A stretch of DNA of 64,000 nucleotides, taken from the NCBI GenBank assembly GCA_905221615.1, contig CAJNDT010004680.1:62001-126000 (forward strand), in the 5' to 3' direction. The translations under genes were made by a program, and so were the position numbers. The notes under the pieces were generated by a model that had not been told where the DNA came from, ran no database searches, and saw nothing but the letters and a program-made list of their open reading frames with translations. This stretch comes from Symbiodinium sp. CCMP2592 (lineage: Eukaryota; Sar; Dinophyceae; Suessiales; Symbiodiniaceae). Shown one piece after another: positions 511 to 59,364 of this stretch. Each line of letters begins with the position of its first letter. The first letter of the stretch is position 1.

Positions 511-555
511 CTTGCCCGGGATCCGCTCGGCGAGGGCAGGCACGGCCTCGAGAAC
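511..555 (-). CDS. OPR gene exon, module B
   Basis: Encodes VLEAVPALAERIPGK. Acceptor GAAG before GTT, donor GTCTGG after AAG. It is the most downstream module in the window; the next A module would lie left of the edge or has decayed. Confidence 0.65.
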
Positions 556-3500
556 CTTCGACGGCCATGAAATCCCAAAGGGTTAGGGTTTAGGGTTTAG
601 GGTTCAGGGGCCCTCAGCCCCCAAAACCCCAACCGGCCGTAATCTAAAACCACGGTTATATAAAACCCTAAACATTTGGAACCTTCAAAAAACAACATTT
701 TGCATCCAGGCCTCCTGAAACCCCTAAACCCCTTATATAACCCTTGAACCTCTCAAACCCCAAGACCATCAACCTCCGGTGCGGAGGACTTGAGGATGGA
801 GGCGGCCCAGAGGCAGTTGGAGAGCTCCTGTCTTAGGGCCTATATAGTTCAGTTTGTTTTAAAGTTTTTTAGGGTTTCTATAGCCTCTTCGGTGTTTAAG
901 GTTTAGGGTTTAGTGTTTATAGCTTAGTTTGGTTTAAGGTTTATAGGGTTTCTATAGCCTGTTGGGCGTTTAAGGTTTAGGGTTTAGTGTTGATAGCTTT
1001 GTTTGGTTTAAGGTTTAGGGTTTAGGGTTGAAATAGACTTTGGGGGTTGGGGTTTAGGTTTAGTGTTAAAAATTGTTGGGTTTAGGTTCAGGGCTTGTAA
1101 GGGATCTGTAGGGTTTAGAGACTAGGGATTGGGGTAGTTACAAGTAGTGTTATAAGTGGTGTCAGTGTATGTTAAACCGACACTTGTGAAGCAGGTTTCT
1201 GGAACAGCTGTCTTGTGTGCCTCGCCTTTCGCAGCACCGAGGAGGGAGGGTTGCGGTCGTGCTTGAGAAATCAGCTGACAGGGTCAGGGCTACAACTTCT
1301 GAGGACGGGGTTCCTTTCAGAGTTCGTTTCAGCCTGTGGGCAGGCTTCAACATTCGACACGTCTTCGGGGAAGACCTTTCAGCATTCAGAGGCCGGGGGC
1401 CTACTTTCCACAAGGGGTTCATAGGGTTTAGGGGCAGGTCCGGGCTATCATTTTCACATTGGTAGCGGAGCCCGGCCTGTCATAGTGTAGGGGTACACTG
1501 TGTAAACAGGGGATTTTAGATCCGAGAGAGTAGGTCCAGAATCGTCGAGCCATGGCTAGTGAAGGGACGGAAGCAGCAGGCAGTTCAGCCGGTGGAACGC
1601 TGAGCAACCTCCCCTGGCAGCAGATTCCTAAGTTCACGCCGGGAAGTACGAACGTTGATGAGTACACAAAAAGATTACAGTTCATTAGGGATCTGTGGCC
1701 AGATGAGCACATTCACTTGCTTGGTCCCAGAGCAGCTCTAATGGTCGAAGGGTCTGCCTTTCAGAAGGTGAGCCGGATCCCAGCCGACAAGCTCAAGAGC
1801 AAAGATGGTGTGAAAATCCTCGTGGAAAAGCTGGGTGGTGCGTGGGGGCGTACAACGGTGGAAGACAAGTACTTTTACTTTGAGCAGGCGATCTTCCAGA
1901 CCCAGCAGAAGAGTGATGAATCAAACGACTCGTATGTTGCTCGGCATGATGCTCATTTCGAAGAGTTGATCTCTCGCAGCGTTCAGCTGGAGGAGGTCAG
2001 AGCATATGTGCTACTGCGGCACTCCATGTTGAGCCCTGAGGACAAACGGAAGGTCATCGTGGAAGCGGGTGGCGACTTGACCTACGCAGGGACTGTGAAG
2101 GCAGTGCGCCTCCTCGGGTCCCGGTTCTTTGGGGAGCTTCAAAATCGTGGTGCGGCTACTGCAGGTGCTCGCGGCCAAGAACGAAACAAAGTGTATAACA
2201 TCAACCTGGCCGAAGATGACGGGATTGATGAGGTTCACGTGGCCGTGGTGCCAGAGAGCGAGCCGAGCGATGAGGAGATCGTGGCCTTTTTCATGGAGCA
2301 GAACGACGAGGATGCCATCTACATCGCGGAGTTTGAGGACCACATCGTGGATGCAGTGCAGGAGTCATCCCTAGCTCCTGTTTTCGCTACTTACCAAGAA
2401 GCTCGCCAGCGTTTGAGGGAGAAAGCTCGCAACCGCGGATATTTTCCCGTGGGTGGAAAAGGCCGCGGAAAAAGCAAGAGCGGGACGCGTCAGCAGAAGG
2501 GAAGTGCCTTCGATGGTGGTCGACGCCGCAGCTTAGCAGAACGCATTGCTTCGAGCAACTGCAAGCTGTGCGGAAAGAAGGGTCACTGGAAGCGAGAATG
2601 CCCCCAGGCTCGTGATGAAGGAAACAAGAAGGAGGTGACCTTGTACTCCCAGACCGAAAACCTCCACCTCTCCTCGACCGAGGTTCTCCACTCCTTGCCC
2701 GAGGATGCCGAGCTCTACTTCGCGACCGATGGTGATGAGGACTTCGACGAGAACCGCGGAGATGAGGCTCAGATACCGATAAGAACCGCAGCGAGGGAGA
2801 ATCGAATTCAGTCAGAAGAGCAGATGTGTCTGGCGGTTTTCTCACCTAAGGTGCCGAAAAGTCCAGATTTTATTAATGCTCTTGCATGTCGTTTGTTAAT
2901 GCCTGACAGGACAGCTAGACAGACAGCCACGCGGCTGACCGGCCTGGGACAAGACCAGGCACTTGCTTCTGTGAGTCGGGACAGTGAGCAAGGCTCTTGC
3001 GGGGAAGTTTTGCAGCATGGGAAGCCGTACACGTTTGAAGACCCGGTTGCTCTGGTTGTTACTCATGGCGCGGAGGGTGTCCTTGATACAGGTGCTAGCC
3101 GGACTGTTGTAGGGAGCCGTCGGGTCAACAACATTTTGCAAGGGCTTCCCAGTCAGTGTCGTGATAGGGTGCGCAAGGCACGGTCAGATGTGACATTCCG
3201 TTTCGGCAACAGTGGCACGCTGACTGCAAAACATGCTCTGCTTCTCCCGACTGCAGAAGACACTTGGATTCGAGTCGAAGTAGTACCAGGCGACACTCCA
3301 CTGCTTATTTCTAACCGGCTATTGTACGACGTAGATGCGGTAGTCCATGTTCGCAGGGGTGTGTTAGAAGTAGGTGGCCGAACGGTAGAGCTTAGAAGGG
3401 ATGAAAGAGGCCTGTCACTGGTAGATCTCACGCAACTGTTGCTAGGGAACGTGGCGCCCATCTTGCATGCAGACGGCAGCCTGCCACAGCAACACAGCAT

Positions 3501-6500
3501 CGACAGAACACTCTTACCACAGCCACCAGTGGATCAACACTTTTACGGAGCTCACCCCACGACAGCAGCATCCCGGATACATGCCGTCGGCGAAAGTCAA
3601 GAAGATCAAGGAAGTGGTGGATCAGCTCCCAGAGGAGCTGGACCAGCCTTTATCGGGGGAGGACGATCACGATCTTTCCGAGGAGCACCTGGCGATCGAC
3701 CAGTACTTGACGGTTCAATATGTCAAGCCACCACACATCTCGACGCTTCGCCAATGGGGGGAAGTTGTGCTGCCACAGGGCAAGCACAAGCACAAGACAC
3801 ACAACGAAGTATTCAGCAACGATCTGACGTATGCCATTCTCATGGCTCGGAAGACCTCTCTGACGTCGTCATGGGCGCTGTCGTTCAAGAACTACAGCCT
3901 GGCACGATTGAAGGGGATGGCTCAGGCGGCCCAGGACCAGATCAATACGGATGCCAAGAAGCCAACCACGAGTCACGGTCCGGGTCCAAAAGCCAGCAAG
4001 GGCAGAGCCAAGGGCTACAAGACGGAGGGCCGGATGCGACCGGTGGACACCGAGGGGGGCGAGTTCTCGGAGTGGAGGATTTGTGCCCCGGTGACCGCGG
4101 CAAGTTCGGAGATTGGTGCCCCGGTGACCGCCTCAAGCTTGGCGAGTGCAGCGTCAAGCCAGGAGGTGACCGCAGTTGCCAACAAGAGGGGAGCGCCCAG
4201 CACCGGGCCGTCGCCGATCAAGGCGGAGTTGACGGCCGATCAGAAGCTCGACATCATGACCCGGAAGGCGCTCCTGCAGAGGGAGCTCGAGCACCTCGAG
4301 CAGTTCGATGCGACGCCGGACCCGGCGATCACGGATCGTCAGTGAGTGAGTCGAGTGAGACTGGTGGTCTCAAGCCGTCTTGTGAGGTAGCAGCCGGGGT
4401 AGCTCACCTTTGTAAACAAATTGATGAATGTATACTCCACATAGAGATGCAACTCACTTCATCCGCATTGACGAAGGAACCGGTTGCCTTTTCACGATAT
4501 CGACTTCCAGGACTAGATGTCTTGGAGATTACTACCAGCGGTGACCAGGTCTCTAAGGAAGTATGCCGGCACAAAGGGAGGGCAATTGCTCTGAAGGAGC
4601 CGACTGAAAAGAAGTTGTGGAATTGGATCCACATGTATGAGCCTCGTCACCTTTGGATCAATTGTCCCAGCGGCAAGAATACAAGGAAATGGTGGTCTCC
4701 CAGGTTGCTTTCTGACCTTTATCATCATCAACTACATCAAGGACGGCATCTGCATATTAGGGGAGACCATGATTTCTTTGTGGAGCCGAGTGCCGAGCTT
4801 CAGGAGATTCATGAGGGGATGTTGTGTGCAATCCATTCGCTGCCGGAGCTTTCAGGCTGCCGGGTACCTCCTGGTAATAACTTTCTCCAGCAGGTGTCCT
4901 ATGTCTACACCACATCCCGAACCATGTTTAATGCGGTGGATACCCGACAAGTTCCGGAGGAGAATTCGCACCGAGGAAGCTCCAGCAACCACGTCACACC
5001 GACACCACGAAAGCACTGCCACAACAGCCGACTGGCAGCACTGGCAGCACAGGCACTCATCAGTGACAAGGGGTTGCCTCTATATATGCTAGAGCTGTTG
5101 GTAGGGGAGGACCTTAAGCGCAGCTCGCCTGAGAACCCTGATTCGAATCAAAGTGCTGGTAGTGCTAGAGCTGCGATTCAACAAGTGTTGAAGCGCCGAC
5201 GGTTGTGGCAGAAAACTCCACCGCCGCCAGACTCCACGACTTCGTCCGATGCATCTTCTAGTGGACAGGAGGGCTGGAAAGAGGTTCTTGCGCACTGTAG
5301 TCCTGAAGTACCGCGTAGGGCCCGAAAGGTTTTTGAAGTTGGTAGTTCAACGGTGGATAAGATTCAAGCCCTAGTGCCATTTGAAGTGCGGCATGTGGTC
5401 GCAGGTCGTGGCACCTGCCGGTATCAGCTTCCGAATGCTAAGTGGTATGCCGAGGGACGATCCAATGAGGATATTCCTATTAGATTTACGGTTGTAGTGG
5501 TGAGGGGTACCGGGGATATTCAGGTTGATGGTGAGGAACATTGGGTTAGCTTACCTAAGTACAAACAGAATCGGAAAGGAACTCCAGCGAGGATCAGTCT
5601 CACTGTGTTTGGGGCTCCGCGAGAGTCGCGAGTGCTGCAGCCACCGCCTTCTGATGTGACCGCGGGTGCAGCCCCAGATTTCGAAGCTGAGCCTCAGAGT
5701 GAGCCCAATCTCGGAACTCATAGGCCTGTTGATGTAGCCCCTTTTGGTCCCCCAAAGAGTGTTCCACGGCATGGGCCGGGTTATTTTGCATTGTCTGAAT
5801 CCGAGAAACGGGAACTCAGGAGGCTTCATAACAATCTGGGCCATCCAAGCACTGAGACTTTCGTCAAGTTCTTAGGTGAGCGGAAGGCTGAGCCAAAGAT
5901 CATTAGGGCGGCTAGGGATTTCTGCTGTGATGTCTGTTTTGAAACCACGGCTCCAAAGTTAGCAAGGCCCAGCCACATTCATCAAGATCTTGATTTCGGC
6001 GATGTCATAGGCATCGACGTGGCCTATTGGACCAGCTCTGCCGGGAAGACATACATGTTTACCCATGTTCTTGATGAAGGCACGCTGTTTCAACAGGCCA
6101 CTTCGGCAGGCCGAACTTCGCGCGAACAGTTTTCCGCACTCATGGACATGTGGCTCAAATGGGCTGGCCCTAGTCAACTGTTGTATTGTGACCCAGCGGG
6201 AGAGTACACGGGAGAGGAGTGGAGAGAGTTTATGCAGAGAGAGGGCATTTGCAATCGGATTTGCGCCGCAGAGTCTCACTGGCAAATCGGCCGGACGGAA
6301 CAGCATGGCAAGCTACTCAAGAATATGCTCTCTCGCATGGACTCCCAAACACCAATCACTGATGAGTCGGAGTTTCGGTTGTGTTTAAGGGCAGCAGTCC
6401 ATGCGAAGAACTCTTTGAGCAGGGTAAAAGGGTATACGCCGGAACAGTTAGTGTTTGGGAAGATGTCACGCTTGCCAGCTTCGTTAATCGCCGATGACAA

Positions 6501-14231: not shown

Positions 14232-14262
<31 letters not shown>

Positions 14263-26200: not shown

Positions 26201-26369
26201 TTCTAAACCACAGTTTGCTTCTGTGGGTTCCTTAGAGGTTTCGAGAATAAACTCAACACTGGCAAGAGCGAATCCGAAACCTTGTCAGGGTTCTTATGAA
26301 GGAATTTACTTTATGTTCCCAAAATGCGGGTATATACCAAATGGTGTGTCTATATGTACATATTGTATG

Positions 26370-26416
<47 letters not shown>

Positions 26417-29400: not shown

Positions 29401-32400
29401 GCCATACCTTCGGCTGGCACATGCTTTTTTGCACGCTCCTTCAGGTTCTTGTTCTGAAGGCCGGTTTTCGTCTGCATGGGCGGTCTACGGCCTGGAGTCT
29501 TTGGGTTAAGTTCTCTGACACTCACACTCGGACAAGCCTGGCAAGGTCTCTGACGGCGGCAAAGGCAAAGGAGGTTTGTGTGTGCTATCGAGAGTGAAGC
29601 ACCTCACCCCGGTCCTTTAGGTGAAGTTTGGCATCCGAACACGACTCTCTGTAAGCAAAGGCTTCCAGCAAAGACCAAGCGATATAGAAGCCTGCTTAAA
29701 TAGTATCGGGTTCTGGGGTCTAGCGCAGTAGAGTCAGATGCGGAATCAAAGCGAGTACCATTTAAACAGCCCAGTCTATAAACCCCAAAACCCTCAACCC
29801 TTTGTGTTCAGAATCAGGGCTCGGGGTATGTTTCATGAGGATGATAACCTGAACCCCAACACTCCACATGTACAAAAGCCGAAACCTTCGTTGCTCAGTT
29901 CACAACTCCCCAAAAGTCCCTAAACCCTAAAGCCGAAACCACTTCCCTCCCCGCCAAAGGTCGGTCCACGACGAACGGAACCCGCTCCACCATCGAGGGA
30001 ACTGCGCTTAGCACCTCTTCAGAGCCGTTTCGGGAGCTTCTGGTTCAGCTTACGGGCCTTAACAATGAGAATACAGCTTTGGGGTATGCTCTACGATAAT
30101 TATAAAAAGGAAGTCCCAAACTAGCATTGGTAACTATTTTGGCTCGTAAGCCGCAATATTAAGGCTTTAGGAGTTGAAGGGTGCTTTGCGGGGTTGACTT
30201 ATGGGAGAAATTGCTTCAGAGACCTTCTTGCATCCTCTGCTGGGAAGTAAATGCTTCATGGACCTACTTTCCGATGACCTCGGAAAGAATGCCTGAATCT
30301 CCTAATATGCGGTGTCTGACCTACTTATAGTCATCGTCCCAGTATAATGCAGATAACGCGGAACCAGGCGGCACATCCTGAGATCCGAAAGCCGGAGGCC
30401 GGCCCATAAACCCACGTGGAGTTGCCAATTCCAACCCCTTAACTAGATGCTTTAAACCACTAAAATTGGAGTTTCGGTGTGTATTCTAGCAGAAGCTCAA
30501 GGAATCCTGAGGAATGCGTTGGACCATGCCTGAAATTAGACAGGGCCAAACTTTCTGATTCGATTTGCATTCCTTGATTAAGTAAGTCGTATTGTGCTCT
30601 CGGGACAAGGCCCCAACGAACCTGCAGACAAACCAAGGCCGATGAATCCCAAACAATAGCCCGCAGACGATACTATAGCCTCCGTAACCATAGGAAAAAC
30701 TCTAAGGGCAGGAGATATTGTTACCGATGTTTGAAGCCTCGATGCTGTGCCCCTGGAAGGTTTAGGCGTTGTGCAGGATGTCAGGTGGTGTTGAGTGGGA
30801 TGTTCGCAGGGCTTATAAAGAGTTTCAACAAGGTTCTACGGCAACTCATGTACAGTAGAAGCCAGAAAGTTGGAACATTGTTATCCTCATTCCCTTAAGG
30901 TAAAGTAGAGGAAATCCCAGCACTAATCGTCCTAAGTCCATGTTCCAACTTTCTGGGGTTCACTATAACCCTAAACCCTAAACCCTAAACCGTTGCAGAA
31001 GTCTAAGGCCCCAAGAGGAGTGAGGGGATTCGGTTCCTAATCCTACACTGTGCTTAGAGACTGTTTGGAGGGTCTACCCATAGGCCCCAAAGTAGTTCCT
31101 TTTTCAGAATACCTAATAGGATTCTATATATGAACCCCCAAAAGGAACTACTTTGGGGCCTTAGGGTAACCCCACAAACACAAAAAAAACATAACTACCT
31201 CCCGATGTCCACAAACATTTCAAAGCAGCCCACCTCGGGCAATTCCTCTCTCAACTTGACAGCTGCCCAGAGGCAGTTGGACAAATCCTGGGTCGACTAT
31301 AAGGACGGCAGGAAACATGATTTTTTGGCTCCGCTTTAAAAAATACAAAGACAAGGATGACAAACAACATGAAGAATGTCCAAAATTGACCAAGCGTCCT
31401 GGGGAATCATGCCTCTTGATCTCTCCTGCAGCTCACGTTTAGGAGGCCTTGTGGCCCTTTAACGTCGATATCCTGTTCTGCCGAAGTCAGTTCATGGCAT
31501 GAACACGCATGAACAGTAGGCGCATCATGATTACGTACCTTCTTCAGAAACGTGGAAGAGGAGCGGTCCGGTTTGGAGTTGTCGCGTGGAGAATTGCGGG
31601 TGCCGAGCTCGGGTGGAGGAAATGAATGCCGTAAAACACCAACTGTCTTCGAACGAAGATGCAGGCATCTTCGTGTGTACGGAAGTATCAGGTGACGGTT
31701 TGAGCTCTTGTGGGGTTGAGAAGCTGGAGCGAAAAATTGGGTTCGAGATGCTGCCAAGCACAATCATGCACTTGACGGTCACACACACAGAACAGCTGCA
31801 GAAAGCTGCCCGCAGCCAGGCCCCAACCCCCGAACCCTTGAAAGTAGCAACATAGGGCCTGTGAAGCCCGAATGAGTGCCCGCCATCTCTAAGCCCATAT
31901 AGGATCAGGACCGTAGTGCTAAGAATGTGGCTTGGGGGTCTAGCAAAGTCTCACTAAACGGAACCTACCGGCCTTGACAGACATCCTTATCTGCGATTCG
32001 GTGATTGTCTTCGTAGAGCTTGGAAAGTTCTAGCATTCTCTGCTAGGACCTCATGTCTGATTCTAACCTTTCATTTACGAAGAGGATGGACGAACTTTTA
32101 CTAACCAGTGGTTTTGTGGGCTCCATGGCTCTTTAGCTCCTTATTTAATAGGGACTATCATCATCCCTGGCTCCTTAGCTCCTCCAATATCAATGGTTAG
32201 TCTATGCAAACAGCTGACGTTCTCAGCCCGACTTCAACGGAATATCACCTCGAAGGTCTACGGTCTACCTTAGAAGCTGCCCCAACCCTGCAATAGTGAT
32301 CATAAGGATTATATAGGATTATATTAGGGCCCTATTATATTCCTATTATACCACTATTACAGGGTGGGGCCCATACTCAGGTAAGTTGTAGTTAGACCCT

Positions 32401-33288
32401 GAGCTCCTATGTAGACCCCAAGACTTACATACCTGACCCCCTTTTTTCAGACAGGTCTCCTCGCACCGGAAACCGAAACCCTCAAACCCGAAACTTCATG
32501 AAATGGACTTATACACGGAATCTTTTCCGCGGACCCAAGTTAGGGGCATACTGAGCATAGTCTAGCTTCGAAGCCTACAACCCCTACAGTTCGCCAAGCA
32601 ACCGCGATGCGCTGCACAAGGCTGGGAACAGCTCCGAGCACTTCCGGCGCCGCAGCGGCAAGATGAGCCGACGCCCAAAAAGAGTTGGAAAGCTCTTGCA
32701 GGTTAAAGTCCATCACCTTGCCAAGGTTATTACGAGAAGGCCATCGAGGGTCCTGCTATGTAATACTTGATGTGTTAGGGTTTATGGTTTAGGGTTCAGA
32801 CTTTTAGGATCTACTTCCTATGCTTACTTGGGTGAACGGACTTTCTGAAGGAAACCAGCTTTGCTCCCCCCACCTTGCTTGGTATCTGCTCTGCAATCGC
32901 AGGAACGGCTCCGGCCGCCTCGGGCACGACTCCTCAGGGACTGAATACCCAGAGACTCCAATATCCCTTAATCAAGGAATAGACCTGAAATTAGAGGAGG
33001 ATCGGACCTAATATGATTTAAGGTATATCCCTGAATTCAGGGATATACCTTAAATTCGCCTCGGCCCTGGTGGAAGCGGTCAGAGGTTCCTATTCGGATT
33101 CCTTCTATTCCCCACCTCTTAATCCCCTCCCCAGTGACCCCACCCCCAAAATTCGCGCCACGCGCCCCCCCCCCCCGCTTAAAAATGGAAACGTGTCGAT
33201 TAGCCCCAAGGTCCGGTGGTGAATTCTCTCCTCCACTAGATTTTGGCTGTCTGTAGGCAGTCCCACCCAATTTCCTCCTTTTCGCCCC

Positions 33289-33373
<85 letters not shown>

Positions 33374-36156
33374 CTCCCCCCTGCCCCCCTCCAGGCAAAG
33401 TTCGGAAATAGCGTTGCTTTGGGCAGCACAGCACGCGGCTCCACGACCTAACCTTCTCATAGCATCGGAGATTCAAGCATCGCTATCGCCAGCTAGGGGC
33501 TATGTCGAATATCAGGCACAGAACGCGGAGATGCTACAATGGTTACATCAACCTCTTGCTGCCTTCTTGAGACAAGCCCTCTGCCTTACGCTGCTCTGCC
33601 CTGCTTTGCCCTGCCCTACAATTAATACAAGTGCGATTCCAACTGTTGTTATTTTCGTACAAGAGCTTCCTGCTGCGCCGGATGGTAGCCAGTCGCCGCA
33701 TGCGCGAAAAGCCGGGCCGAGGCGGACGACGCGAAGCGTTTCAAATTATAGTAGGATCCCTTATATGTTTTGAGGTAGATTCCTTAATTAAGAGATATTG
33801 GAGTCTCTGAACACCCTAGGCTCCCCAAAAAAGGCTTCGGCGCCCACAGCAGTCAAGTGCTCACAAATTCGTAGGATTATATGGGAGTTTCCGAAAAAAG
33901 GTACCCTAATAATACAGTACCCTAAATATTAGGATCCTTATTTGAAGGACCCCTCAGAAAGGTACCCCTAATTTTCGGAAACCCCCATATTCACACCCAA
34001 AACCCCACAAAACCCTGAAAGCCAAAAGCTTCCGCTACCAGTGCTCCTCGCATCTTCGCCGCCGCCCAGAGGCAGTTTGACAAGCCCTGGGGAATCATGT
34101 CTCCAGCCTTGGCAGCTTGAAGACTCATGGGACTTAGTAAGTAAGAGCTCTTAAAGGGCTCCTTAAAGGGATCTATAGGGCTCCTTAAAGGGATCTATAT
34201 GGGGTTTAGGGTTTAGGGTCTACTTGAAGGCTCATGGGACTTAGTAAGTAAGGTTATAAGTAGGTTATAATTAGGATAACCCCACTTAGGGGACTTATAA
34301 CCCCAATTATAACCTACTTACTAAGTCCCATGATACTCTAAGAGGGCAAACAACCTTTTGCATCCGGGCTTGGGAAGTCGGCCGGGGAAGGTGAAAGAGG
34401 GCAAACAAGCTAACTTGGGAAGCCAAGGGCATTCTGGGGTGTTTAGACTTGTTTAGAGTTTAGGGGTTGGGGTTTAGGGCTGTAAGGTATTATGAAGGGT
34501 TTTCGGGACTGACGTGGAAGCCTGATTAAAAAAAACCGCTGGTTCTCAAAAATATTCTTGATATGGGCTATGAAAATTATAAAACCGCGGGCTTCTATTC
34601 AGGTTTGCACACAGCTGCCAATGCCCCATTTACATGCATATATTTATCAAAATGATGAGATGCAGCTGGCTGAATTTCGGCCATAGAAAACACAAGGTAT
34701 TGCTGTTACTTCTCCCTGCTCCGAAACACATGGGTGTTCGGCCGGCCCTTTAGCCATGCCTAGCTAATTACCTGACCCCTAAATCCTACGTTACACCTTG
34801 CACCTGGCACAACTATAGGACAAGTCAAACTTCGAAGGTGTAGTACAGTTAAGTCCCCATGGGAATATGGCTACAGCTTGCATTCATAGTCCTGACGACC
34901 TGCAGCTGAAATCCTGCATCACCGAACCGAGTTTGCAAAAGTCACGCAAGCCCTCGAAGTCCGAATCCCGACCCAGAGAGCCCAATACCCCTTAATTAAG
35001 GAATATAGCTTAAATCTTAATTAAGGAATATAGCTTAAATCATATAATATGAAGCCCCTAATGGTTTAAGGAAAAAGTCCTTAATTAAGGGGTATTGGGC
35101 TCTCTGGGTTTGTAAAAGTCATGCAAGACCCCGTTGCCCGAAGCCCGATGCAAATCCGATCAGTTCATGATGGGAGGCCCAAAGGGGGGGTTTAAGATTC
35201 TCGGGGTAGGGATTCCTTAATATGAACCCTACTATGGGAACCCTGATCCCTGCTAAACCCCTATAGGCTAACACCCCTTTTGGCCTCCTATGACCGAAGT
35301 CCGAAGCCCGATGCAAATCCGATCAGCCCAGACGGCCCAAGACCCCTTAAGTAAGGAATTCTTCCTTAACTCATTAGGGGCTTCATATTATAGGATTTAA
35401 GCTATATTCCTTAATTAAGACTTAAATTTAAGCCATATTCCTTAATTAAGGGGTATTGAGCTCTCTGGGAGTTCCGCCCCGCGCCAGCCTTCTCTCGGAC
35501 GGCGTCTACCAGCTCAGGGAAGAGCGGTGCATCTTCGTCCCCAATCTCCTCGTGAAGCACCTCTCTAGAGGCTGTGGCCCGAGCCGCGCTATGTAGAATA
35601 ATAGCCTTTTCTAGGTTTCGGGCCATTATTTTACCTACTTTTGAGGGCCTGGGTAGGGTATCTTCGGGTTTTGGGGTTGTCCCGAAGCCCTGAACCGATA
35701 GTCGTAGCCCCAAAGAGCTCCCAAGCCCCCTGTAGACACATTACTAAAACTTAACAGTGGTTGGGGTTCAGGGTTCAGGGTTTAGGGGGTGGCCTGAAAG
35801 TCATAAGTCCTCAACCCAAAGCACCGAAGACCTCAATTCAGAGCCTAGGATTCTCGGACATGGCGCGGCCACGGCCCAAAAGACGTTTGCCACGTTCCGG
35901 GAGGGCAAAGCATCCTCATGTTCTAGGGTTTAAGGTTAATTAGGGTTTTTTTGACACTCACTCTCGGACAAGCCTGGGGGTTTAGGGTTTAAGAGTCGGA
36001 CAGCCTGTTGCCTTCAACCTTGACTTTCCTTATGGTCATACGGCTAAAGAGCTATTAAAGTCGCTGCTACTACTATGATTACTCTTAGTGTTGCCAATGT
36101 GATGAGAATCACTTTTGCTGCTGCTATTACAGGCATTGCTGCTAGCAATAGTGCTT
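511..36156 (-). CDS. Giant multi-exon OPR-like repeat gene (locus span)
   Basis: About 30 short coding segments, mostly 45-110 nt, lie in the same orientation and alternate between module A (consensus DLSNCLWAAAxL...APE) and module B (consensus VLxxVPAIAxxI...MxPQ). Joined in descending coordinate order they make OPR-like repeats of about 37-40 aa; OPR proteins bind organellar RNA through paired helices. Most A modules are exactly 54 nt, start after AG and end before GT or GC. Coding sequence is only about 5% of the span. Introns are full of foldback elements and telomere-like tracts and hold a whole retrotransposon. The 3' end is off the left edge and the 5' end was not found. Individual exon edges are inferred. 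It could be a decayed copy, but strict module order and kept frames argue for a working gene. Confidence 0.75.
774..827 (-). CDS. OPR gene exon, module A
   Basis: 54 nt encoding ELSNCLWAASILKSSAPE. Acceptor CAG, donor GTTGAT. The 218-bp intron to the next exon both starts and is followed by GTT after AG. Confidence 0.75.
875..1025. repeat. Tandem repeat, two units of about 75 bp
   Basis: GGGTTTCTATAGCCT through GTTTGGTTTAAGGTTTA occurs twice, rich in TTTAGGG-like steps. Confidence 0.7.
1130..1163. repeat. Left part of an F3-like foldback split by the retrotransposon
   Basis: GGGTAGTTACAAGTAGTG and TTATAAGTGGTG resemble the F3 left arm. The continuation lies at 9362-9405, after the copia element. 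Confidence 0.45.
1164..1169. repeat. Target-site duplication, left copy
   Basis: AGTGTA directly before the 5' LTR. The same six bases follow the 3' LTR at 9356-9361. Copia elements usually duplicate 5 bp, so one base may match by chance. Confidence 0.85.
1170..1458 (+). repeat. 5' long terminal repeat
   Basis: A 289-bp LTR beginning TGTTAAACC and ending TTTTCACA. It differs from the 3' copy only at 1339 (G here, C at 9236). It should hold the element's promoter and polyadenylation signals, but I could not place them. It contains a short telomere-like stretch near 1425-1437. Confidence 0.96.
1460..1472 (+). promoter_or_regulatory. Primer binding site, initiator-Met-tRNA-like
   Basis: TGGTAGCGGAGCC starts one base after the 5' LTR. 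It resembles the complement of eukaryotic initiator methionine tRNA 3' ends (TGGTATCAGAGCC in plants, TGGTAGCAGAG in animals), with one or two differences. This is the usual primer for copia elements. The exact host tRNA is not in the window. Confidence 0.7.
1552..9042 (+). CDS. Copia gag-pol polyprotein, 2496 aa, uninterrupted
   Basis: Retrotransposon structural and enzymatic polyprotein. Gag fills roughly residues 1-350 and ends in a CCHC zinc knuckle (337-350, CKLCGKKGHWKREC). Aspartic protease has the DTGAS active site at D512. A probable Rossmann-like domain starts near L988. Integrase has the HHCC zinc site (H1426 to C1462) and D1489, D1547, E1583, which gives the expected D,D(35)E spacing. 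Reverse transcriptase has FDIS at D2040 and the VDD catalytic pair D2136/D2137. RNase H has D2289, E2342 and D2388. Gag and pol are in one frame with no frameshift, as in many plant and protist copia elements. The first ATG after the primer site is taken as start. Residues about 670-930 are low in complexity because a second frame there carries the better-looking protein. Confidence 0.95.
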   Translation: MASEGTEAAGSSAGGTLSNLPWQQIPKFTPGSTNVDEYTKRLQFIRDLWPDEHIHLLGPRAALMVEGSAFQKVSRIPADKLKSKDGVKILVEKLGGAWGRTTVEDKYFYFEQAIFQTQQKSDESNDSYVARHDAHFEELISRSVQLEEVRAYVLLRHSMLSPEDKRKVIVEAGGDLTYAGTVKAVRLLGSRFFGELQNRGAATAGARGQERNKVYNINLAEDDGIDEVHVAVVPESEPSDEEIVAFFMEQNDEDAIYIAEFEDHIVDAVQESSLAPVFATYQEARQRLREKARNRGYFPVGGKGRGKSKSGTRQQKGSAFDGGRRRSLAERIASSNCKLCGKKGHWKRECPQARDEGNKKEVTLYSQTENLHLSSTEVLHSLPEDAELYFATDGDEDFDENRGDEAQIPIRTAARENRIQSEEQMCLAVFSPKVPKSPDFINALACRLLMPDRTARQTATRLTGLGQDQALASVSRDSEQGSCGEVLQHGKPYTFEDPVALVVTHGAEGVLDTGASRTVVGSRRVNNILQGLPSQCRDRVRKARSDVTFRFGNSGTLTAKHALLLPTAEDTWIRVEVVPGDTPLLISNRLLYDVDAVVHVRRGVLEVGGRTVELRRDERGLSLVDLTQLLLGNVAPILHADGSLPQQHSIDRTLLPQPPVDQHFYGAHPTTAASRIHAVGESQEDQGSGGSAPRGAGPAFIGGGRSRSFRGAPGDRPVLDGSICQATTHLDASPMGGSCAATGQAQAQDTQRSIQQRSDVCHSHGSEDLSDVVMGAVVQELQPGTIEGDGSGGPGPDQYGCQEANHESRSGSKSQQGQSQGLQDGGPDATGGHRGGRVLGVEDLCPGDRGKFGDWCPGDRLKLGECSVKPGGDRSCQQEGSAQHRAVADQGGVDGRSEARHHDPEGAPAEGARAPRAVRCDAGPGDHGSSVSESSETGGLKPSCEVAAGVAHLCKQIDECILHIEMQLTSSALTKEPVAFSRYRLPGLDVLEITTSGDQVSKEVCRHKGRAIALKEPTEKKLWNWIHMYEPRHLWINCPSGKNTRKWWSPRLLSDLYHHQLHQGRHLHIRGDHDFFVEPSAELQEIHEGMLCAIHSLPELSGCRVPPGNNFLQQVSYVYTTSRTMFNAVDTRQVPEENSHRGSSSNHVTPTPRKHCHNSRLAALAAQALISDKGLPLYMLELLVGEDLKRSSPENPDSNQSAGSARAAIQQVLKRRRLWQKTPPPPDSTTSSDASSSGQEGWKEVLAHCSPEVPRRARKVFEVGSSTVDKIQALVPFEVRHVVAGRGTCRYQLPNAKWYAEGRSNEDIPIRFTVVVVRGTGDIQVDGEEHWVSLPKYKQNRKGTPARISLTVFGAPRESRVLQPPPSDVTAGAAPDFEAEPQSEPNLGTHRPVDVAPFGPPKSVPRHGPGYFALSESEKRELRRLHNNLGHPSTETFVKFLGERKAEPKIIRAARDFCCDVCFETTAPKLARPSHIHQDLDFGDVIGIDVAYWTSSAGKTYMFTHVLDEGTLFQQATSAGRTSREQFSALMDMWLKWAGPSQLLYCDPAGEYTGEEWREFMQREGICNRICAAESHWQIGRTEQHGKLLKNMLSRMDSQTPITDESEFRLCLRAAVHAKNSLSRVKGYTPEQLVFGKMSRLPASLIADDNAATQTLAASSLPEGVSFRKALQRREDARVAFVRVDNDNAYRRALLSRSRPACQKFDPGDWVCYWRRQKNGSQNRGEKGRWHGPAQVVCADNRIVYLSHSGFLVRASPEQLRPASLREWHSVSQQPQQPTRPSTSHVVDLVGTGVLPSREDVEVQGEVPESSPPNASDLTPITDLPVEVALPPGDATMGVPEQPEMEVSPVVSEVPDATMEPHDIPVPDDEDDDLLFGDAESFLVHPTGSQAWELQVHETSVPFENLPTPEQSLQYVLLATAEKKKRVEVRLKDLSPTERQQFEGAKSKEVGAWLDHRTVRRVAAGTLDDSQLMRCRWILTWKPPEKEGGPKRAKARLVVLGFEDPGLAEIPNDAPTLGKDARQLLLQKVASQRWTLINFDISTAFLQGKGDGRKLGIIPPEELKQALGMRKGEQCQLDGGAYGRVDAPFLWFQTLKQTLESLGFVQCPFDACTFSLVSRQSDGSPKVHGVLGVHVDDGIGGGDQYFSKVIQQLRDIYSFGSYEEGDFTFTGIRFKQWDDGSIEMDQVRYVEKIEPIQISRSRRQDPTAKLNPSEVHELRRINGSLQYAAVHTRPDLAAKVGYLQSRIPKAEVRHLIEANRVLHEAKTHPVSIMIVPIPEEHVTFCTFSDASFATSKDNNSYQGTLVISTDWRMLQNEQAVVVPVAWSSKKIARVVRSTLSAEVVALCNSIDRMSWLRLLWEWMKDPSIDLANPELVLERAPKSSLVTDCKSAYDIATKTAVPACSELRTQLECLLLRERLKENCAMRWVHSKAMLADCLTKVMDGATLRQVLLGGSYALFDEGDVLRNRAGQRQSLKWLRDAQTQDSQKPAQNMNT
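3467..4345 (+). CDS. Overlapping +1-frame ORF inside gag-pol with ExoX-C-like motif
   Basis: An open frame of 293 codons (including stop) shifted +1 against gag-pol, from the end of the protease region to 4345. From about 3590 it looks like real protein: charged helices, then VKPPHISTLRQWGEVVLP, then a motif starting at 3779 that begins GKHKHKTHNEVF and continues to KTSLTSSW. The G-K-x-K-x-T-x-x-E-V-F pattern recalls ExoX-like C-terminal domains that I remember between protease and integrase in related dinoflagellate copia proteins. In those the domain is in the main frame. So either two offsetting indels moved it out of frame, or it is reached by frameshifting. The main frame stays open but low in complexity. 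Family assignment is from memory, not a search. Confidence 0.55.
   Translation: MQTAACHSNTASTEHSYHSHQWINTFTELTPRQQHPGYMPSAKVKKIKEVVDQLPEELDQPLSGEDDHDLSEEHLAIDQYLTVQYVKPPHISTLRQWGEVVLPQGKHKHKTHNEVFSNDLTYAILMARKTSLTSSWALSFKNYSLARLKGMAQAAQDQINTDAKKPTTSHGPGPKASKGRAKGYKTEGRMRPVDTEGGEFSEWRICAPVTAASSEIGAPVTASSLASAASSQEVTAVANKRGAPSTGPSPIKAELTADQKLDIMTRKALLQRELEHLEQFDATPDPAITDRQ
9067..9355 (+). repeat. 3' long terminal repeat
   Basis: A 289-bp copy of the 5' LTR with one substitution (C at 9236). It is followed directly by the AGTGTA target duplication. Confidence 0.96.
9356..9361. repeat. Target-site duplication, right copy
   Basis: AGTGTA directly after the 3' LTR, matching 1164-1169. Confidence 0.85.
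9438..9494 (-). CDS. OPR gene exon, module B
   Basis: 57 nt encoding VVPAISQRIPDSSQEFNSQ. Acceptor CCAG, GC donor (GCGGGT). The intron below it, about 8.6 kb, holds the copia element; without it the intron would be about 0.4 kb. Confidence 0.65.
9548..9780. repeat. Foldback family F2 fragments with tandem duplication
   Basis: A partial left arm at about 9548, then two direct copies of about 80 bp (9610-9690, 9697-9777). Each has an F2 right arm (AAGGATA...GGAGTCTCTG) and AGCCCCGAAAGAYAAGCCTC. Confidence 0.65.
10187..10240 (-). CDS. OPR gene exon, module A
   Basis: 54 nt encoding DLSSCLWAAANLEAAAPA. Acceptor CGCAG, GC donor (GCGTTG). Confidence 0.7.
10609..10710. repeat. Foldback element F7
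   Basis: Arms AGGAACCTGATTAAGAAACC / GGTTTCCGTTCC (diverged). Followed closely by an F15 copy. Confidence 0.75.
10721..10818. repeat. Foldback element F15, copy 1
   Basis: AGTAGAAGCCCAAAAGTTGG start and GGTTTCCAACTCTATGGGG end; shares AATCCCAGCACTA with copy 2. Confidence 0.7.
10919..11014 (-). CDS. OPR gene exon, end of module A plus module B
   Basis: 96 nt encoding AATLQEATPG followed by ILEAVPALALSIPEK and then ASKMNPQ. The acceptor AAG follows a CCCTAAA-like stretch. The first residues complete the A module begun at 11242-11265. The segment is followed by GACCCG, either a GA donor or further coding sequence. Confidence 0.65.
11242..11265 (-). CDS. OPR gene micro-exon, start of module A
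   Basis: Encodes EMSMCLWA after acceptor CCCAG. Direct reading soon hits TGA, but a GC donor after TGG GCC joins in frame to the exon at 10919-11014 and restores a consensus repeat. That would make a 24-nt exon. Confidence 0.5.
11338..11375. repeat. Telomere-like tract
   Basis: CCCTAAA units with CCCCTAAA variants. Confidence 0.8.
11761..11799 (-). CDS. OPR gene exon, module B
   Basis: Encodes VLAVVDALAERNP after acceptor GAG, with GTCCCG as donor. The frame stays open a few codons further, so the 3' edge is uncertain. Confidence 0.55.
12550..12603 (-). CDS. OPR gene exon, module A
   Basis: 54 nt encoding HISNCLWAAATLKDFAPE. Acceptor CCCAG, donor GTCGGG. Confidence 0.75.
13527..13605 (-). 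CDS. OPR gene exon, module B
   Basis: Encodes VLGAIPAITKQVPK and, after a short link, SAMTGSR. Acceptor GACAG, donor GTGCAG. Confidence 0.6.
14102..14176 (-). CDS. OPR gene exon, end of B plus module A
   Basis: 75 nt encoding VANFNCQ then DLANSLWASAHLRGAAPQ. Acceptor GCCAG, GC donor (GCGCTG). Confidence 0.65.
14231..14302. repeat. (GT)n(AT)n microsatellite
   Basis: TG repeats followed by TATATA runs. Confidence 0.9.
14447..14555. repeat. Foldback element F16, copy 1
   Basis: Arms GCTGGGTTCTTGTTAAGGAA / TTCCTTAGCAAGAACCCAGC, mirrored ATTTATTTTCAGTTACC inside. Confidence 0.85.
15108..15153 (-). CDS. Possible OPR gene exon, weak module B
   Basis: Encodes MAATNFLSSKQRARM after acceptor GCAAG, with donor GTAGAG. 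The match to module B is weak. It is listed because it sits where a B module is expected, between A modules at 16.6 and 14.1 kb. Confidence 0.35.
15690..15812. repeat. Foldback element F13, diverged, reversed
   Basis: Shows F13 landmarks on the minus strand (ATAATTAGA, GGTATTGGTA) but is much altered. Confidence 0.45.
16021..16120. repeat. Foldback element F11, diverged
   Basis: CTGTCTGGTCCTTAGTAAAG start with GTTATTGGGACT core; right arm weak. Confidence 0.6.
16123..16222. repeat. Foldback element F5
   Basis: Arms GGGTGGTGTCATATTTACGG / CCATAATTTTGACAACCATCC around GTACGGCACCTAATATTCAG. It begins 3 bp after an F11 copy. Confidence 0.85.
16324..16431. repeat. Foldback element F7
   Basis: Arms CGTAGGAACCTGATCAAAGA / CTTCTTAATCGGTTTCCTAC. 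Confidence 0.8.
16432..16519. repeat. Foldback element F6
   Basis: Arms CTACCCATAGGCACC / GGAGCCTATGGGTA. Joined to an F7 copy. Confidence 0.8.
16561..16635 (-). CDS. OPR gene exon, end of B plus module A
   Basis: 75 nt encoding VSRMIPR then ELASCLWAAATLRDSAPE. Acceptor TCCAG, GC donor (GCGAAC). Confidence 0.7.
16711..16799. repeat. Foldback element F11
   Basis: Arms TGTCTGGTTCT / AGAACCAGACA; core GGGGATTATATAGGGACTAC. Confidence 0.8.
16806..16919. repeat. Foldback element F10 (part of F11-F10 composite)
   Basis: Ends AGGACCCTTTGGG; contains GATTTGGGGAAGTAT. Joined to F11 at 16711-16799. Confidence 0.7.
16984..17048 (-). CDS. OPR gene exon, module B
   Basis: Encodes VLLNMFISTSPSLRKTFRTI, a divergent B module, after acceptor GAAG. 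The 3' edge (GC donor) is uncertain. Confidence 0.45.
17746..17854. repeat. Foldback element F4
   Basis: Arms GGTTTCCGAAAATGGGGGAC / TTTTCGGAAACTCCCAT with a GGATCCTTATTATAAGGACC core. Confidence 0.85.
18967..19020 (-). CDS. OPR gene exon, module A
   Basis: 54 nt encoding DLSNCLWAAAKLRERSPE. Acceptor GGAAG, donor GTGCTA. Reading on gives VLSTI and a stop, so it either splices here or once continued into B. Confidence 0.75.
19062..19160. repeat. Foldback element F3
   Basis: ACTTGGAGG start, GTTATAAGT motifs mirrored as ACTTATAAC, shortened right end. Confidence 0.75.
19259..19287. repeat. (AT)n microsatellite
   Basis: Uninterrupted TA repeats. Confidence 0.85.
19810..19875 (-). CDS. OPR gene exon, module B
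   Basis: 66 nt encoding VLAAVPPLATNLGRLAG then QMVPQ. Acceptor GAGAG. It is followed by GACCTT, either a GA donor or coding D-L. Confidence 0.7.
20622..20675 (-). CDS. OPR gene exon, module A
   Basis: 54 nt encoding EISNSLWAAATLQDAVPE. Acceptor ATTCAG, donor GTTTCC. Confidence 0.75.
21158..21266. repeat. Foldback element F7
   Basis: Arms AATGTAGGAACCCGATTAAG / GTTTCTTAATCAGGTTC. Confidence 0.85.
21323..21430. repeat. Foldback element F1
   Basis: Inverted arms CAGAGAGCCCAATA / TATTGGGCTCTCTG with an inner TTAAGGAATATAGCTTAAAT / GAAGCCCC core. No coding capacity. Confidence 0.85.
21635..21707 (-). CDS. OPR gene exon, module B
   Basis: Encodes LEALPAAPVLVPQIRRK, then V and DDFNPQ, very close to an OPR helix pair. 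Acceptor CGAG, GC donor (GCGTGG). Confidence 0.65.
21749..22022. repeat. Compound triplet-repeat block
   Basis: CTG/CTA/CGA trinucleotide runs that keep every frame open, so translations from here are meaningless. Confidence 0.85.
22529..22638. repeat. Foldback element F8, copy 1
   Basis: Nearly identical to 50407-50516, with only a handful of differences. Ends GGATGCCCAGTA / TACTGGG. Confidence 0.85.
23117..23218. repeat. Foldback element F10
   Basis: TGGTATTGGGGGGTACTTCC then CCCAAATCAAGATAGTAATT, ending GGACCCTTTGGG. Confidence 0.7.
23298..23351 (-). CDS. OPR gene exon, module A
   Basis: 54 nt encoding DLSNSLWATATLAEKSPL. Acceptor GCTAAG. The 3' edge is uncertain because the frame stays open. 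Confidence 0.7.
23964..24017 (-). CDS. OPR gene exon, module B
   Basis: 54 nt encoding VAALVAQLPQHVADMSGQ. Acceptor CCAAG. Followed by GACGCT, a possible GA donor. Confidence 0.6.
24611..24705. repeat. Foldback element F9, copy 1
   Basis: Arms GTTGATGATATAAATCCTGC / GCAGGATTTATATCATCAAC are perfect complements; the match extends inward through ATRACCCATAATAA. Confidence 0.9.
25167..25238 (-). CDS. OPR gene exon, module A
   Basis: 72 nt encoding MGPR then DLAMCLWALAKLRDMPE and LRN. A pyrimidine-rich stretch precedes acceptor GCAG; donor GTGGCG. Confidence 0.75.
25252..25390. repeat. Unclassified foldback
   Basis: AAAGGAGGGACCCTTAATGG / ATTAAGGGTCCCTCCTTT around a TATATAATGGGTATATAATA core. 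Confidence 0.75.
25872..25926 (-). CDS. OPR gene exon, module B
   Basis: Encodes VLETLPAMSARLGKEARQ. Acceptor CCCAG, donor GTGCCC. Confidence 0.6.
26287..26470. repeat. Foldback element F16, copy 2, split by a TA microsatellite
   Basis: GGTTCTTATGAAGGAATTTA left and TGGTAACTTAGATTGATTTC right, with about 40 bp of (AT)n in the loop (26370-26410). Confidence 0.7.
26591..26662. repeat. Perfect interstitial telomere array
   Basis: About ten exact CCCTAAA heptamers in 72 bp, the cleanest in the window. Confidence 0.9.
26718..26832. repeat. Foldback element F3
   Basis: Arms TACTTGGAGGTTCAT / ATGAACCTCCAA with mirrored TTATAAGT motifs. Confidence 0.85.
26935..27295. repeat. Telomere-like minisatellite
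   Basis: Units of about 60-75 bp made of CCCTAAACCCCTAAACCCC runs plus the constant word AAAGCACAAGCACCTA (at about 27056, 27117, 27189). The array ends beside an OPR exon at 27294. Confidence 0.8.
27294..27341 (-). CDS. OPR gene exon, module A
   Basis: Encodes ELTSTIWAAAVMKASW. Acceptor ATAAG, GC donor (GCAGCT). The 3' edge is uncertain. Confidence 0.6.
27770..27867. repeat. Foldback element F6
   Basis: Arms CTATAGGCTCTATGGTAGCT / ACTACTATGGAGCCTATGGG. Confidence 0.8.
27959..28069. repeat. Foldback element F10 (part of F10-F11 composite)
   Basis: Arms CCAAAGGGTCCTAGGTACTG / TAGGTAAGTAGGGCCCTTTGG. Next to F11 at 28071. Confidence 0.8.
28071..28169. repeat. Foldback element F11, inverted
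   Basis: Arms TGTCTGTCTGGTTCT / AGAACCAGACAG. With F10 it repeats, in reverse, the arrangement at 16711-16919. Confidence 0.8.
28293..28365 (-). CDS. OPR gene exon, module B
   Basis: Encodes VVLNMVPAIVKGIAQKS and then DFTAR. Acceptor GAGAG. Followed by GACCTT, the same six bases that follow the B exon at 19810. Confidence 0.65.
28396..28503. repeat. Foldback element F1
   Basis: Same arms and core as the copy at 21323; right arm diverged (GGTATGGGGCTCTATGGG). Confidence 0.8.
28512..28633. repeat. Foldback element F3, inverted core
   Basis: Arms ACTTGGAGGTTC / GAACCACCAAGTA. It lies 9 bp from an F1 copy. Confidence 0.85.
29345..29453 (-). CDS. OPR gene exon, end of B plus module A
   Basis: Encodes NLKERAKKHVPAEGMAPQ then HLSNCLWAAANLQEEPG. 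Acceptor TTCAG, donor GTTTTC. It continues the B head at 29982-30014. Confidence 0.7.
29982..30014 (-). CDS. OPR gene micro-exon, start of module B
   Basis: 33 nt encoding VLSAVPSMVER. Acceptor AGAG, donor GTTCCG. Joined to 29345-29453 it gives a complete B+A repeat. Confidence 0.55.
30853..30960. repeat. Foldback element F15, copy 2
   Basis: Arms CAGTAGAAGCCAGAAAGTTGG / TTCCAACTTTCTGGGG. Confidence 0.75.
31074..31169. repeat. Foldback element F6
   Basis: Arms GGCCCCAAAGTAGTTCCTTT / AAAGGAACTACTTTGGGGCC are perfect over 20 bp. Confidence 0.9.
31234..31287 (-). CDS. OPR gene exon, module A
   Basis: 54 nt encoding DLSNCLWAAVKLREELPE. Acceptor CCCAG, donor GTGGGC. Confidence 0.75.
32279..32371. 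repeat. Foldback element F12, copy 1
   Basis: Arms CCCCAACCCTGCAATAGTG / CACTATTACAGGGTGGGG. Confidence 0.85.
32603..32694 (-). CDS. OPR gene exon, fused A and B modules
   Basis: Encodes (E)LSNSFWASAHLAAAAPE directly followed by VLGAVPSLVQRIA. This is the clearest proof that A and B belong together, since no intron separates them here. Acceptor GCAAG, donor GTTGCT. Confidence 0.7.
32948..33057. repeat. Foldback element F2
   Basis: Left arm CCCAGAGACTCCAATATCCC and an inner TTTAAGGTATA palindrome; right end lost. Confidence 0.7.
33291..33372. repeat. 82-base poly-C run
   Basis: 82 consecutive C on the plus strand, with a smaller C run at about 33164-33177. On the opposite strand this is uninterrupted poly-G. 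Confidence 0.9.
33670..33744 (-). CDS. Possible OPR gene exon, module B
   Basis: Encodes RFASSASARLFAHAATGYHP and AQQ. It sits in the expected B slot. No clear acceptor is seen; a half foldback (33746-33812) abuts the 5' side. Confidence 0.35.
33746..33812. repeat. Foldback element F2, right half
   Basis: TAGTAGGATCCCTTATATG through GATATTGGAGTCTCTG. It abuts a possible OPR exon. Confidence 0.65.
33879..33990. repeat. Foldback element F4
   Basis: Arms ATATGGGAGTTTCCGAAAA / TTTTCGGAAACCCCCATAT. Confidence 0.85.
34039..34115 (-). CDS. OPR gene exon, end of B plus module A
   Basis: Encodes AKAGDMIPQ then GLSNCLWAAAKMRGAL. Acceptor TCAAG, donor GTAGCG. Confidence 0.7.
34117..34340. repeat. Foldback element F3 subtype, with a left partial copy
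   Basis: The complete hairpin is 34221-34340 with GGGACTTAGTAAGTA arms. A left half copy is at 34117-34160. Confidence 0.8.
34972..35108. repeat. Foldback element F1 with inner duplication
   Basis: Perfect CCCAGAGAGCCCAATACCCC arms. The TTAATTAAGGAATATAGCTT core is present twice in tandem. Confidence 0.85.
35327..35469. repeat. Foldback element F1
   Basis: Diverged left arm, good right arm, inner segment duplicated. Its right edge touches a probable OPR exon. Confidence 0.8.
35470..35587 (-). CDS. Possible OPR gene exon, module B head
   Basis: An open stretch encoding ARATASREVLHEE and, a few residues on, PLFPELVDAVREK. Acceptor ACATAG. A foldback of family F1 (35327-35469) touches its downstream edge. 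It fits the B-head slot above the exon at 34 kb. Confidence 0.4.
35855..35895 (-). CDS. Possible OPR gene exon, module A
   Basis: Encodes VANVFWAVA, a divergent LWA core, in the expected A slot. Splice edges are not clear. Confidence 0.3.
36113..36156 (-). CDS. Possible OPR gene exon, module B
   Basis: 44 nt encoding ALLLAAMPVIAAAK. Acceptor ACCAG, donor GTGATT. It fits the next B slot upstream. Confidence 0.4.
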
Positions 36157-36800: not shown

Positions 36801-36863
36801 CCCTACCGAGCTCCTCCTGGAGCATCCTGCGAATCCTGGCCATCAGCCTGGGTCCCAGTCACT

Positions 36864-37432: not shown

Positions 37433-38025
37433 CTTTGCTCCTATCTCTCTATCTTCCCTTATTGAACAAAATACCCCCTAGAACATACCGGGTTGAGAAA
37501 CCACGGCGCTATTCGGTTCGTAGAGGCCTGGATAATCAGAGGAAGGTTGTGGGGTATAGTATGGCAGAAGTCATATTCCGACCTATCAGGGAATATTGGT
37601 ACTATGCATGCCGACACCCTTCCCCTCTATCTAAACTCCAATCCTCTTAAACCTAGGTTTTCTGAGCAGGAACTGCATTGCAGTAAGCCCGGAATCTCTT
37701 CAGCCACTACAACTCTAAACCCTACACCCCCTAAATTTAACCTAAACCCTAAACCACCGAAAGCCCCGAACCCAAACCCTAAACCCCCAACACCCAACCC
37801 TCTAAACCCCCAAAACCCAAACCAGCAAAACCCTAAACCCGTTACTGTACACCCCCAAAGCCCCCCCCCCCCCCCATAGGTGCCTGGGCCACACTGGGCT
37901 TCTCGCATCCTCGGGTCTCAGCTGACCCTTCTTTTGGAACTTGGCGAGCTTGCTCCTGACTCAGCTGGAAGGCGTATGTACACATGTATATGTGTGTATG
38001 TAGAGAGACAGATAGATAGATAGAC

Positions 38026-59356: not shown

Positions 59357-59364
59357 GTAGTAGC

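Follow-up and report, generated by a model that had tools for sequence, protein, structure and literature searches.

Repeated introner-like insertion probably interrupted the repeats of an OPR-like solenoid gene in Symbiodinium sp. CCMP2592

Results

Gene structure

The window analysed here, a stretch of 64,000 nucleotides, is C4679:62001-126000 of the 1.098-Gb assembly of Symbiodinium sp. CCMP2592, a dinoflagellate symbiont of corals whose strain is listed in PMC8045281 as S. tridacnidorum CCMP2592. On its minus strand, a spliced-profile search recovered a gene of 38 exons and 37 introns spanning 41.3 kb, with a single frame of 766 residues that ends in a stop codon and contains no internal stop in any of the 38 exons. 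The median exon measures 56 nt, and the 2,301 coding bases make up 5.6% of the locus, close to the 5% or so estimated in a first-pass annotation of this DNA. That annotation had proposed an OPR-like gene divided into half-repeat exons between positions 511 and 36156. The locus is real but its extent was understated, since four N-terminal exons lie beyond 36156 and the 3' end falls at about base -908.

The two halves of the repeat unit, designated A and B, each have a recognizable core. We scanned 144 kb including the window in six frames for these cores, using a position-specific matrix derived from 29 intact repeats of other loci. All 14 A cores and all 13 B cores scoring at least 10 lay on the minus strand, along which A and B alternate. 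Lowering the threshold to 8 added one B match on the minus strand and one on the plus strand, and at the same threshold the reversed 144-kb sequence yielded no A core and one B core.

The repeat region was then modelled with a cyclic 40-residue profile, thinned of repeats identical at 34 or more of the 40 residues, which allowed introns of any phase that start with GT, GC or GA and end with AG. The alignment joined 32 repeat exons through 31 introns in a continuous repeat register over 37 kb and scored 797.9 bits, as against 16.9-21.6 bits for 11 controls (the plus strand, the reversed sequence, three other stretches and six Markov resamples). On the strength of these controls chance or scattered pseudogene scraps were rejected, and the initial observation that the cores keep to one order, one strand and one frame was borne out. 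Exactly the same 31 introns were returned with flat donor scores and no bonus for AG|G, and also with the intron cost set to 11 or 20; 30 of the 31 were retained when GT was strongly favoured. A model admitting GT donors only was rejected, as it lost 238 bits and altered 23 of the 31 introns. Six exons that the core scan had missed were added by the model (31399-31425, 27303-27341, 25872-25940, 23964-24017, 11415-11449 and 11242-11265).

With a second profile, built from ten paralog N-termini, six further exons were placed upstream, in order, at 184.7 bits compared with 16.1-18.3 bits in three controls. No exons were found 5' of 40391, so that the 5' end of the gene, where a targeting sequence would sit, was not recovered. 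Among the matches listed in our protein searches there was no CCMP2592 gene model at this locus. We infer that this locus is one protein-coding gene whose predicted exons are joined by splicing.

A protein search with the joined translation identified a partial protein of Symbiodinium sp. KB8, which is itself a gene prediction, 79% identical over 453 aligned residues; KB8 probably corresponds to the S. microadriaticum CassKB8 assembly of PMC8045281. Eighteen of our 38 exons are 67-100% identical to the KB8 protein, which continues ungapped across 11 junctions joining well-matching exons and ends before exons 28-38. Three exons of the window gene, of 9, 13 and 25 residues, are absent from it precisely from end to end. 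The two sequences disagree in part: exons 1, 2, 12 and 19 align poorly (4-7 identities in each), KB8 has neither exon 4 nor exon 5, nor three residues of exon 3, and it contains extra residues.

All exons described below lie on the minus strand. The six N-terminal exons (40346-40391, 39099-39159, 37884-37955, 36814-36847, 35867-35914 and 35489-35560) encode a domain common to intronless paralogs. They are followed by repeat exons 34047-34107, whose start was set by the N-terminal profile, 32874-32932 and 32603-32716, with both junctions read through in KB8. The last of these three contains an uninterrupted A+B pair, confirming the fused exon noted earlier at 32603. Next come exons 31399-31425 (27 nt), 31234-31287, 29963-30014, 29352-29407, 28293-28370 and 27303-27341; the 9-residue and 13-residue exons absent from the KB8 model belong to this group, and 29963-30014 aligns poorly there. 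The earlier impression of a B half split at 30014 and 29453 was not reproduced, as the model joins 29963-30014 directly to 29352-29407. Among exons 25872-25940, 25164-25238, 23964-24017, 23297-23351 and 21637-21701, the second is exactly missing from the KB8 model and the fourth aligns poorly. By comparison, identity to KB8 reaches 84-100% per exon in 20622-20675, 19810-19875, 18967-19020, 18090-18134, 16561-16635, 15413-15457 and 14102-14176. Beyond the end of the KB8 model lie 13553-13605, 12550-12616, 11769-11799, 11415-11449, 11242-11265, 10919-11014, 10178-10240 and 9438-9494, then 774-827 and 511-555. The final exon, at -908 to -738 (C4679 about 61092-61262), falls outside the window; it is a second fused A+B exon and carries the in-frame stop.

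The 8.6-kb intron 828-9437 harbours a Ty1/copia-type element on the plus strand, with an open reading frame at 1534-9039 that includes an RVT_2 domain and long terminal repeats at 1170-1458 and 9067-9355. These repeats of 289 bases are 99.65% identical, and the insertion is therefore recent.

Elsewhere in the window, a 174-residue open frame at 58339-58860 (minus strand) has strong ankyrin-repeat matches and is part of another gene, and an open frame at 59086-59556 (minus strand) resembles ubiquitin weakly (E 5.4e-5) and misses the Pfam cut-off. Across the genome, the dinoflagellate spliced leader occurs in 429 exact 21-base copies, 217 forward and 212 reverse; the reversed control pattern occurs in none.

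Protein family

The predicted protein consists of an N-terminal domain and about 16 repeats of 40 residues with two helices each, built around the core LSNCLWAAAKL. It is classed here as a predicted OPR-like alpha-solenoid, in keeping with the first-pass proposal. When a profile of 26 family members, comprising paralogs and homologs but not the window protein itself, was compared with solved structures, it matched mL115 (E 6.3e-12), mL123 (1.2e-7), mS107 (1.4e-6) and RESC6 (4.4e-4), chains that we take to be OPR proteins. The AlphaFold model of P0012, an intronless paralog from the same genome, is a regular solenoid of two-helix, 40-residue units (mean pLDDT 87.5), in which helices 218-231 and 236-255 are followed by repeats of the pair. 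Its best Foldseek matches were mitoribosome proteins of Chlamydomonas and Polytomella, RESC proteins and mitoribosome proteins of Toxoplasma, with mL115, RESC6 and mL123 among them.

The Pfam FAST_1 domain was detected at 42.0 bits (cut-off 27.4) in the intronless paralog on C5208 and at 92.2 bits in a distant MMETSP relative; five other scanned family sequences scored below the cut-off and the KB8 protein gave no match. The RAP domain (PF08373) was absent from four family proteins and four paralog frames, a set to which the window protein does not belong. Chlamydomonas OPRs feature a PPPEW-type motif. The consensus of the 40-residue unit is without this motif, which may not be obligatory in OPRs. 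Because of relatives such as mL115 and RESC6, the window protein would be expected to reside in an organelle and to bind RNA there. An OPR-like family is herewith documented in dinoflagellates; the terms 'octotricopeptide', 'OPR' and 'RAP domain' are absent from the text of a 2026 review of dinoflagellate RNA-binding proteins.

Paralogs

The genome was searched with a single 31-residue query for repeat segments dispersed in random order and strand. It returned at least 62 matches on 11 contigs, always on one strand per contig, these counts being lower bounds and five of the 11 contigs having a single match at the threshold used. Largely uninterrupted paralogs reside on C5208 and in a cluster on C1213, where some joins proposed by the method span separate neighbouring genes or are shorter than 60 nt, and uninterrupted stretches were seen on C4090, C1191 and C4897. 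The repeats of the intronless paralog at C5208:83181-84233 are nearly identical to each other, which suggests recent expansion or homogenisation. The C1213 cluster (168000-184000) comprises at least five OPR-like genes in tandem on one strand with long uninterrupted frames.

Other paralogs, on C3334, C324, C2302, C4457 and C1358, bear introns at various positions of the unit. Three of the 26 introns found in them measure less than 60 nt and were excluded, being probable artefacts of profile alignment. Five of the remaining 23 coincide with one of the window gene's three preferred positions (see below), and 18 lie elsewhere in the unit.

Three of the intron-bearing genes could also be compared over the N-terminal domain. 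Here introns interrupt the profile at positions 15, 36, 60, 72, 88 and 112 in the window gene, at 70, 84, 89 and 111 in C324, and at 7, 23 and 60 in C2302, with weak and distrusted joins at 90 and 99 in the latter. Position 60 is the only one held in common among 13 (15 with the two weak joins). A tree was built from 45 N-terminal domains; C3334 and C4457 are absent from it, and the spliced version stands in for one blast row. The three intron-bearing rows stay apart in this tree, where the label requires three changes, two of them forced by supported branches. C324 groups with the C4090 gene, which showed no intron (96/94 support). Since shuffled labels need 2.8 changes on average, the intron labels are simply not clustered on the tree, whose labelling is coarse (33 of the 45 rows are unlabelled, and C1358 counts as intronless despite two introns in its repeats).

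Intron positions

Within the 120-base unit, the 31 introns of the repeat region are spread over 15 positions. Eight are found at Gln1|x2, seven at Glu19|Val20 and four at Lys34|Val35, and each of the other 12 has a position to itself. The first-pass annotation had envisaged introns at two fixed positions of every repeat; recurrence was confirmed for 19 of the 31, albeit at three hot spots, but not for the remainder.

To relate these positions to nucleotide sequence, we removed near-duplicate units, defined by no more than 8 differences in 126 bases, which reduced 78 intronless units to 60 distinct ones. The commonest AG|G positions in this set were Glu19|Val20 (0.55), Lys34|Val35 (0.42) and Gln1|x2 (0.27), and they coincide with the three main intron positions. 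Overall, AG|G frequency averaged 0.257 at intron positions as against 0.038 at random positions of the same phase (maximum 0.131 in 20,000 draws). Within the window gene itself 24 of the 37 junctions read AG|G. AG precedes the donor in 25 of 37 window-gene introns compared with 6 of 23 paralog introns (p 0.003), and hence either insertion prefers AG|G only partly or splicing selection enriches AG|G with age.

When mapped from the P0012 model, 27 of the 31 introns lie inside helices and 4 in loops, approximately as helix length predicts, and placement at module boundaries was rejected. Given this distribution and the coincidence with AG|G, the introns appear to follow nucleotide targets rather than the modules of the protein.

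Exon lengths are more uniform than if AGG sites had been used at random, none being shorter than 24 nt where 7.4 were expected. Introns fill 24 of 49 AG|G sites, and random filling with a minimum exon of about 24 nt jams at about 27.6. A strong claim of saturation was nevertheless rejected. Although 20 of the 25 unused AGG sites are no more than 24 nt from a junction, the same holds for 73% of all positions, which makes this a weak test.

Donor bases and target duplication

Donors of the 37 introns comprise 16 GC, 11 GA and 10 GT. The GT share of 27% is close to the 0.26 for GT-AG in a table of PMC7789003, where GC or GA make up 73.95%, in a column that appears to be that of S. microadriaticum (matched via its mean intron length of 505 bp).

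Donor identity follows the target. The downstream exon starts with GA after 10 of the 11 GA-donor introns but after only 4 of the 26 others (Fisher p 2.7e-5). Introns at Gln|Asp/Glu have 6 GA and 2 GC donors, and those at Glu|Val and Lys|Val have 7 GT and 4 GC. Examined from -8 to +11 against shuffled pairs, the 5' end of the intron matched its own downstream exon at +1 and +2, and exon ends matched intron ends at -3, with no other excess. The first three intron bases equal the exon start in 13 of the 37 introns (3.2 expected), and the full four-base match is kept in only 6 (1.45 expected). Among the 23 paralog introns, three bases were identical in 9 (2.9 expected) and four in 6 (0.95 expected); the -3 match showed no excess there (7 versus 6.8 expected).

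Shuffling was repeated within position classes, for 19 introns. Matches at +2/+3 still numbered 20 where 12.8 were expected (p 0.0007) and those at +1/+2 remained in excess (p 0.04), while -3 did not (p 0.33); p values for these donor matches are nominal, several offset sets having been tried. The excess within classes fits independent insertions and not the copying of one ancestral intron. As a group, window-gene introns thus display the target-site duplication characteristic of introners.

Introner-like elements

PMC9860276 describes introners of S. microadriaticum whose 4-bp duplications are co-opted as 5' splice sites, with the 3' splice site supplied by the element and rare GC/GA donors; terminal inverted repeats occur in some introner families, not in all. 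The 149-nt intron 11266-11414 of the window gene (minus strand) has introner-like ends. Its first four bases, GAGA, recur at the exon start, and its inverted ends, ctgggttc and ctgggctc, nearly match (pairing judged by eye). As a general mark of the introns of this gene, however, terminal inverted repeats were rejected, because the 31 repeat-region introns showed no excess of them (mean 5.32 versus 5.14 mismatched). Adding the paralog introns produced a small excess (4.37 versus 3.98, p 0.005), with the top scorers coming from C3334.

One intron of the C3334 paralog is a dispersed element of roughly 100-130 bp, CTTAGGGGTACTTAGA...TTCAGTATAG, bounded by GCAC at either end. Of two copies elsewhere, the one near the C1213 cluster is bounded in the same way by AACA, and the one 6.8 kb past the end of the window by TTTA, provided that a single terminal base has changed. 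The C3334 locus holds three more relatives, among them an intron, in which no clean duplication is evident. Where the arrangement is clean, in the C3334 sister gene, the element gives the AG and the duplication gives the donor. Two introns of the same paralog share 76 bases at 89%, and three others start with ctgggctcttg- or ccgggctcttg-like sequences that are largely complementary to their own 3' ends.

One element family has copies at several loci of the sequence analysed. Among the matches listed, none of these copies was identified as an intron of the window gene, nor did comparing all introns against each other reveal a full-length family within the gene. The intron-intron matches listed are many and short, consisting largely of TTTAGGG-like and palindromic repeats. 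Such TTTAGGG/CCCTAAA-like runs and short palindromes, in both orientations, are common to many introns, for example 27302-25941. With inverted ends not enriched, the introner reading of the window gene rests on the duplication signal.

Discussion

Our data argue for repeated, independent introner-like insertion with target-site duplication, after the repeats had multiplied, in an OPR-like solenoid gene, and we regard this history as probable. The repeats would have multiplied first, intron gain following their expansion. Spliceosomal introns would then have inserted, mostly independently, in repeat after repeat, with a preference for the AG|G sites present in unit after unit at Glu|Val, Lys|Val and Gln|Asp/Glu. 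Each insertion would duplicate about four bases beginning with G; the first copy would become the 5' end of the intron, making the donor GA, GC or GT according to the target, and the inserted element, presumably an introner, would supply the 3' AG.

The first-pass annotation had left the choice between intron gain and a gene built by exon-pair duplication. Under the latter, a unit with two introns underwent many rounds of tandem duplication and passed its introns on to each repeat, much as the 19 of 31 introns at three recurrent positions would lead one to expect; several repeats do carry the same position pair, exon lengths of 54 + 66 or 75 + 45 recur, and 5 of 23 paralog introns sit at the same three positions. 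Duplication may account for some introns, but as a general origin we consider it unlikely. Gain is favoured because 12 introns are scattered over other positions and two repeats have A and B fused, because donor bases agree more closely with their own exon than with those of introns sharing the position, and because 18 of 23 paralog introns lie elsewhere in the unit. Moreover, the intron matches listed are short dispersed repeats, often in both orientations, and show no end-to-end, full-length similarity.

Somewhat less likely still is intron loss. In this scenario an ancestral unit had introns at all hot spots, different repeats later shed part of them, and the intronless paralogs arose as processed copies. 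AG|G is frequent at the hot spots of those paralogs, as relics would be, and leader-relic genes, a mark of processed copies, have been reported in CCMP2592 (PMC8045281). Yet xAR codons show no excess of a final G at hot sites (89 of 125) over other sites (171 of 273; p 0.11), and the fetched paralog loci contained no spliced-leader relic with up to three mismatches, so that a processed-copy origin was rejected on this count. Furthermore, the three intron-bearing genes have only one of 13 trusted N-terminal positions in common (15 with the two weak ones), and on the coarsely labelled 45-row tree their rows form no clade. Even so, the intronless paralogs could represent the derived state.

A decayed pseudogene of scattered remnants that are no longer spliced is highly improbable: some repeats have diverged and one intron received a recent copia-type insertion, but the 766-residue frame is open across 38 exons with no internal stop, and 18 exons retain 67-100% identity each to the KB8 protein.

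Repeated insertion may be taken a step further. About 16 near-equivalent targets may have been invaded independently at the same few codon junctions, each donor dinucleotide being copied from its own target codon, in a gene that is near the limit set by a minimum exon of some 24 nt; we see about equal grounds for accepting and for doubting this stronger version. If it is true, target sequence alone explains both the non-canonical donors of dinoflagellates and these intron positions, with no link to protein modules. Inferences of intron gain usually concern individual sites in individual genes. A tandem-repeat gene that has intronless sisters in its own genome instead offers many parallel trials on one target, and allows one to ask whether introns go to AG|G sites, whether GA and GC donors copy the target, and whether protein modules determine where exons end. 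Earlier papers have covered introner gain in Symbiodinium, gain at proto-splice sites and, for dinoflagellates, repeated boundary sequences (PMC9860276, PMC4201569, PMC7789003). Of gain in parallel in the successive repeats of a single gene, each donor being traceable to its own target, we found no report in the open-access literature, most subscription papers being outside this scope.

The family of the window protein resembles the alpha-solenoids of the OPR/FASTK-RAP type, such as Chlamydomonas mL115, Polytomella mL123 and mS107 and trypanosome RESC6, in sequence profile and, for the member modelled, in fold. The window protein differs from them in its 40-residue unit with the LSNCLWAAAKL core and in exons nearly as short as single helices, and the scanned family sequences, which do not include the window protein, have no RAP domain.

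As for the introns, the clean case in the C3334 paralog has the same arrangement as the Symbiodinium introners of PMC9860276, with the duplication as donor and the element providing the AG. What sets the window gene apart from those introners is that the same target recurs in every repeat of one tandem-repeat gene, and that most of its introns are long and have no assigned element family. A further parallel is found in the sPCP genes of Symbiodinium, in which introns were gained at proto-splice sites and where, too, relatives without the introns have junction-like sequences at the corresponding places (PMC4201569). Those genes, however, concern three introns, whereas here 31 introns interrupt the many copies of a single unit and their donor bases can be followed back to the target.
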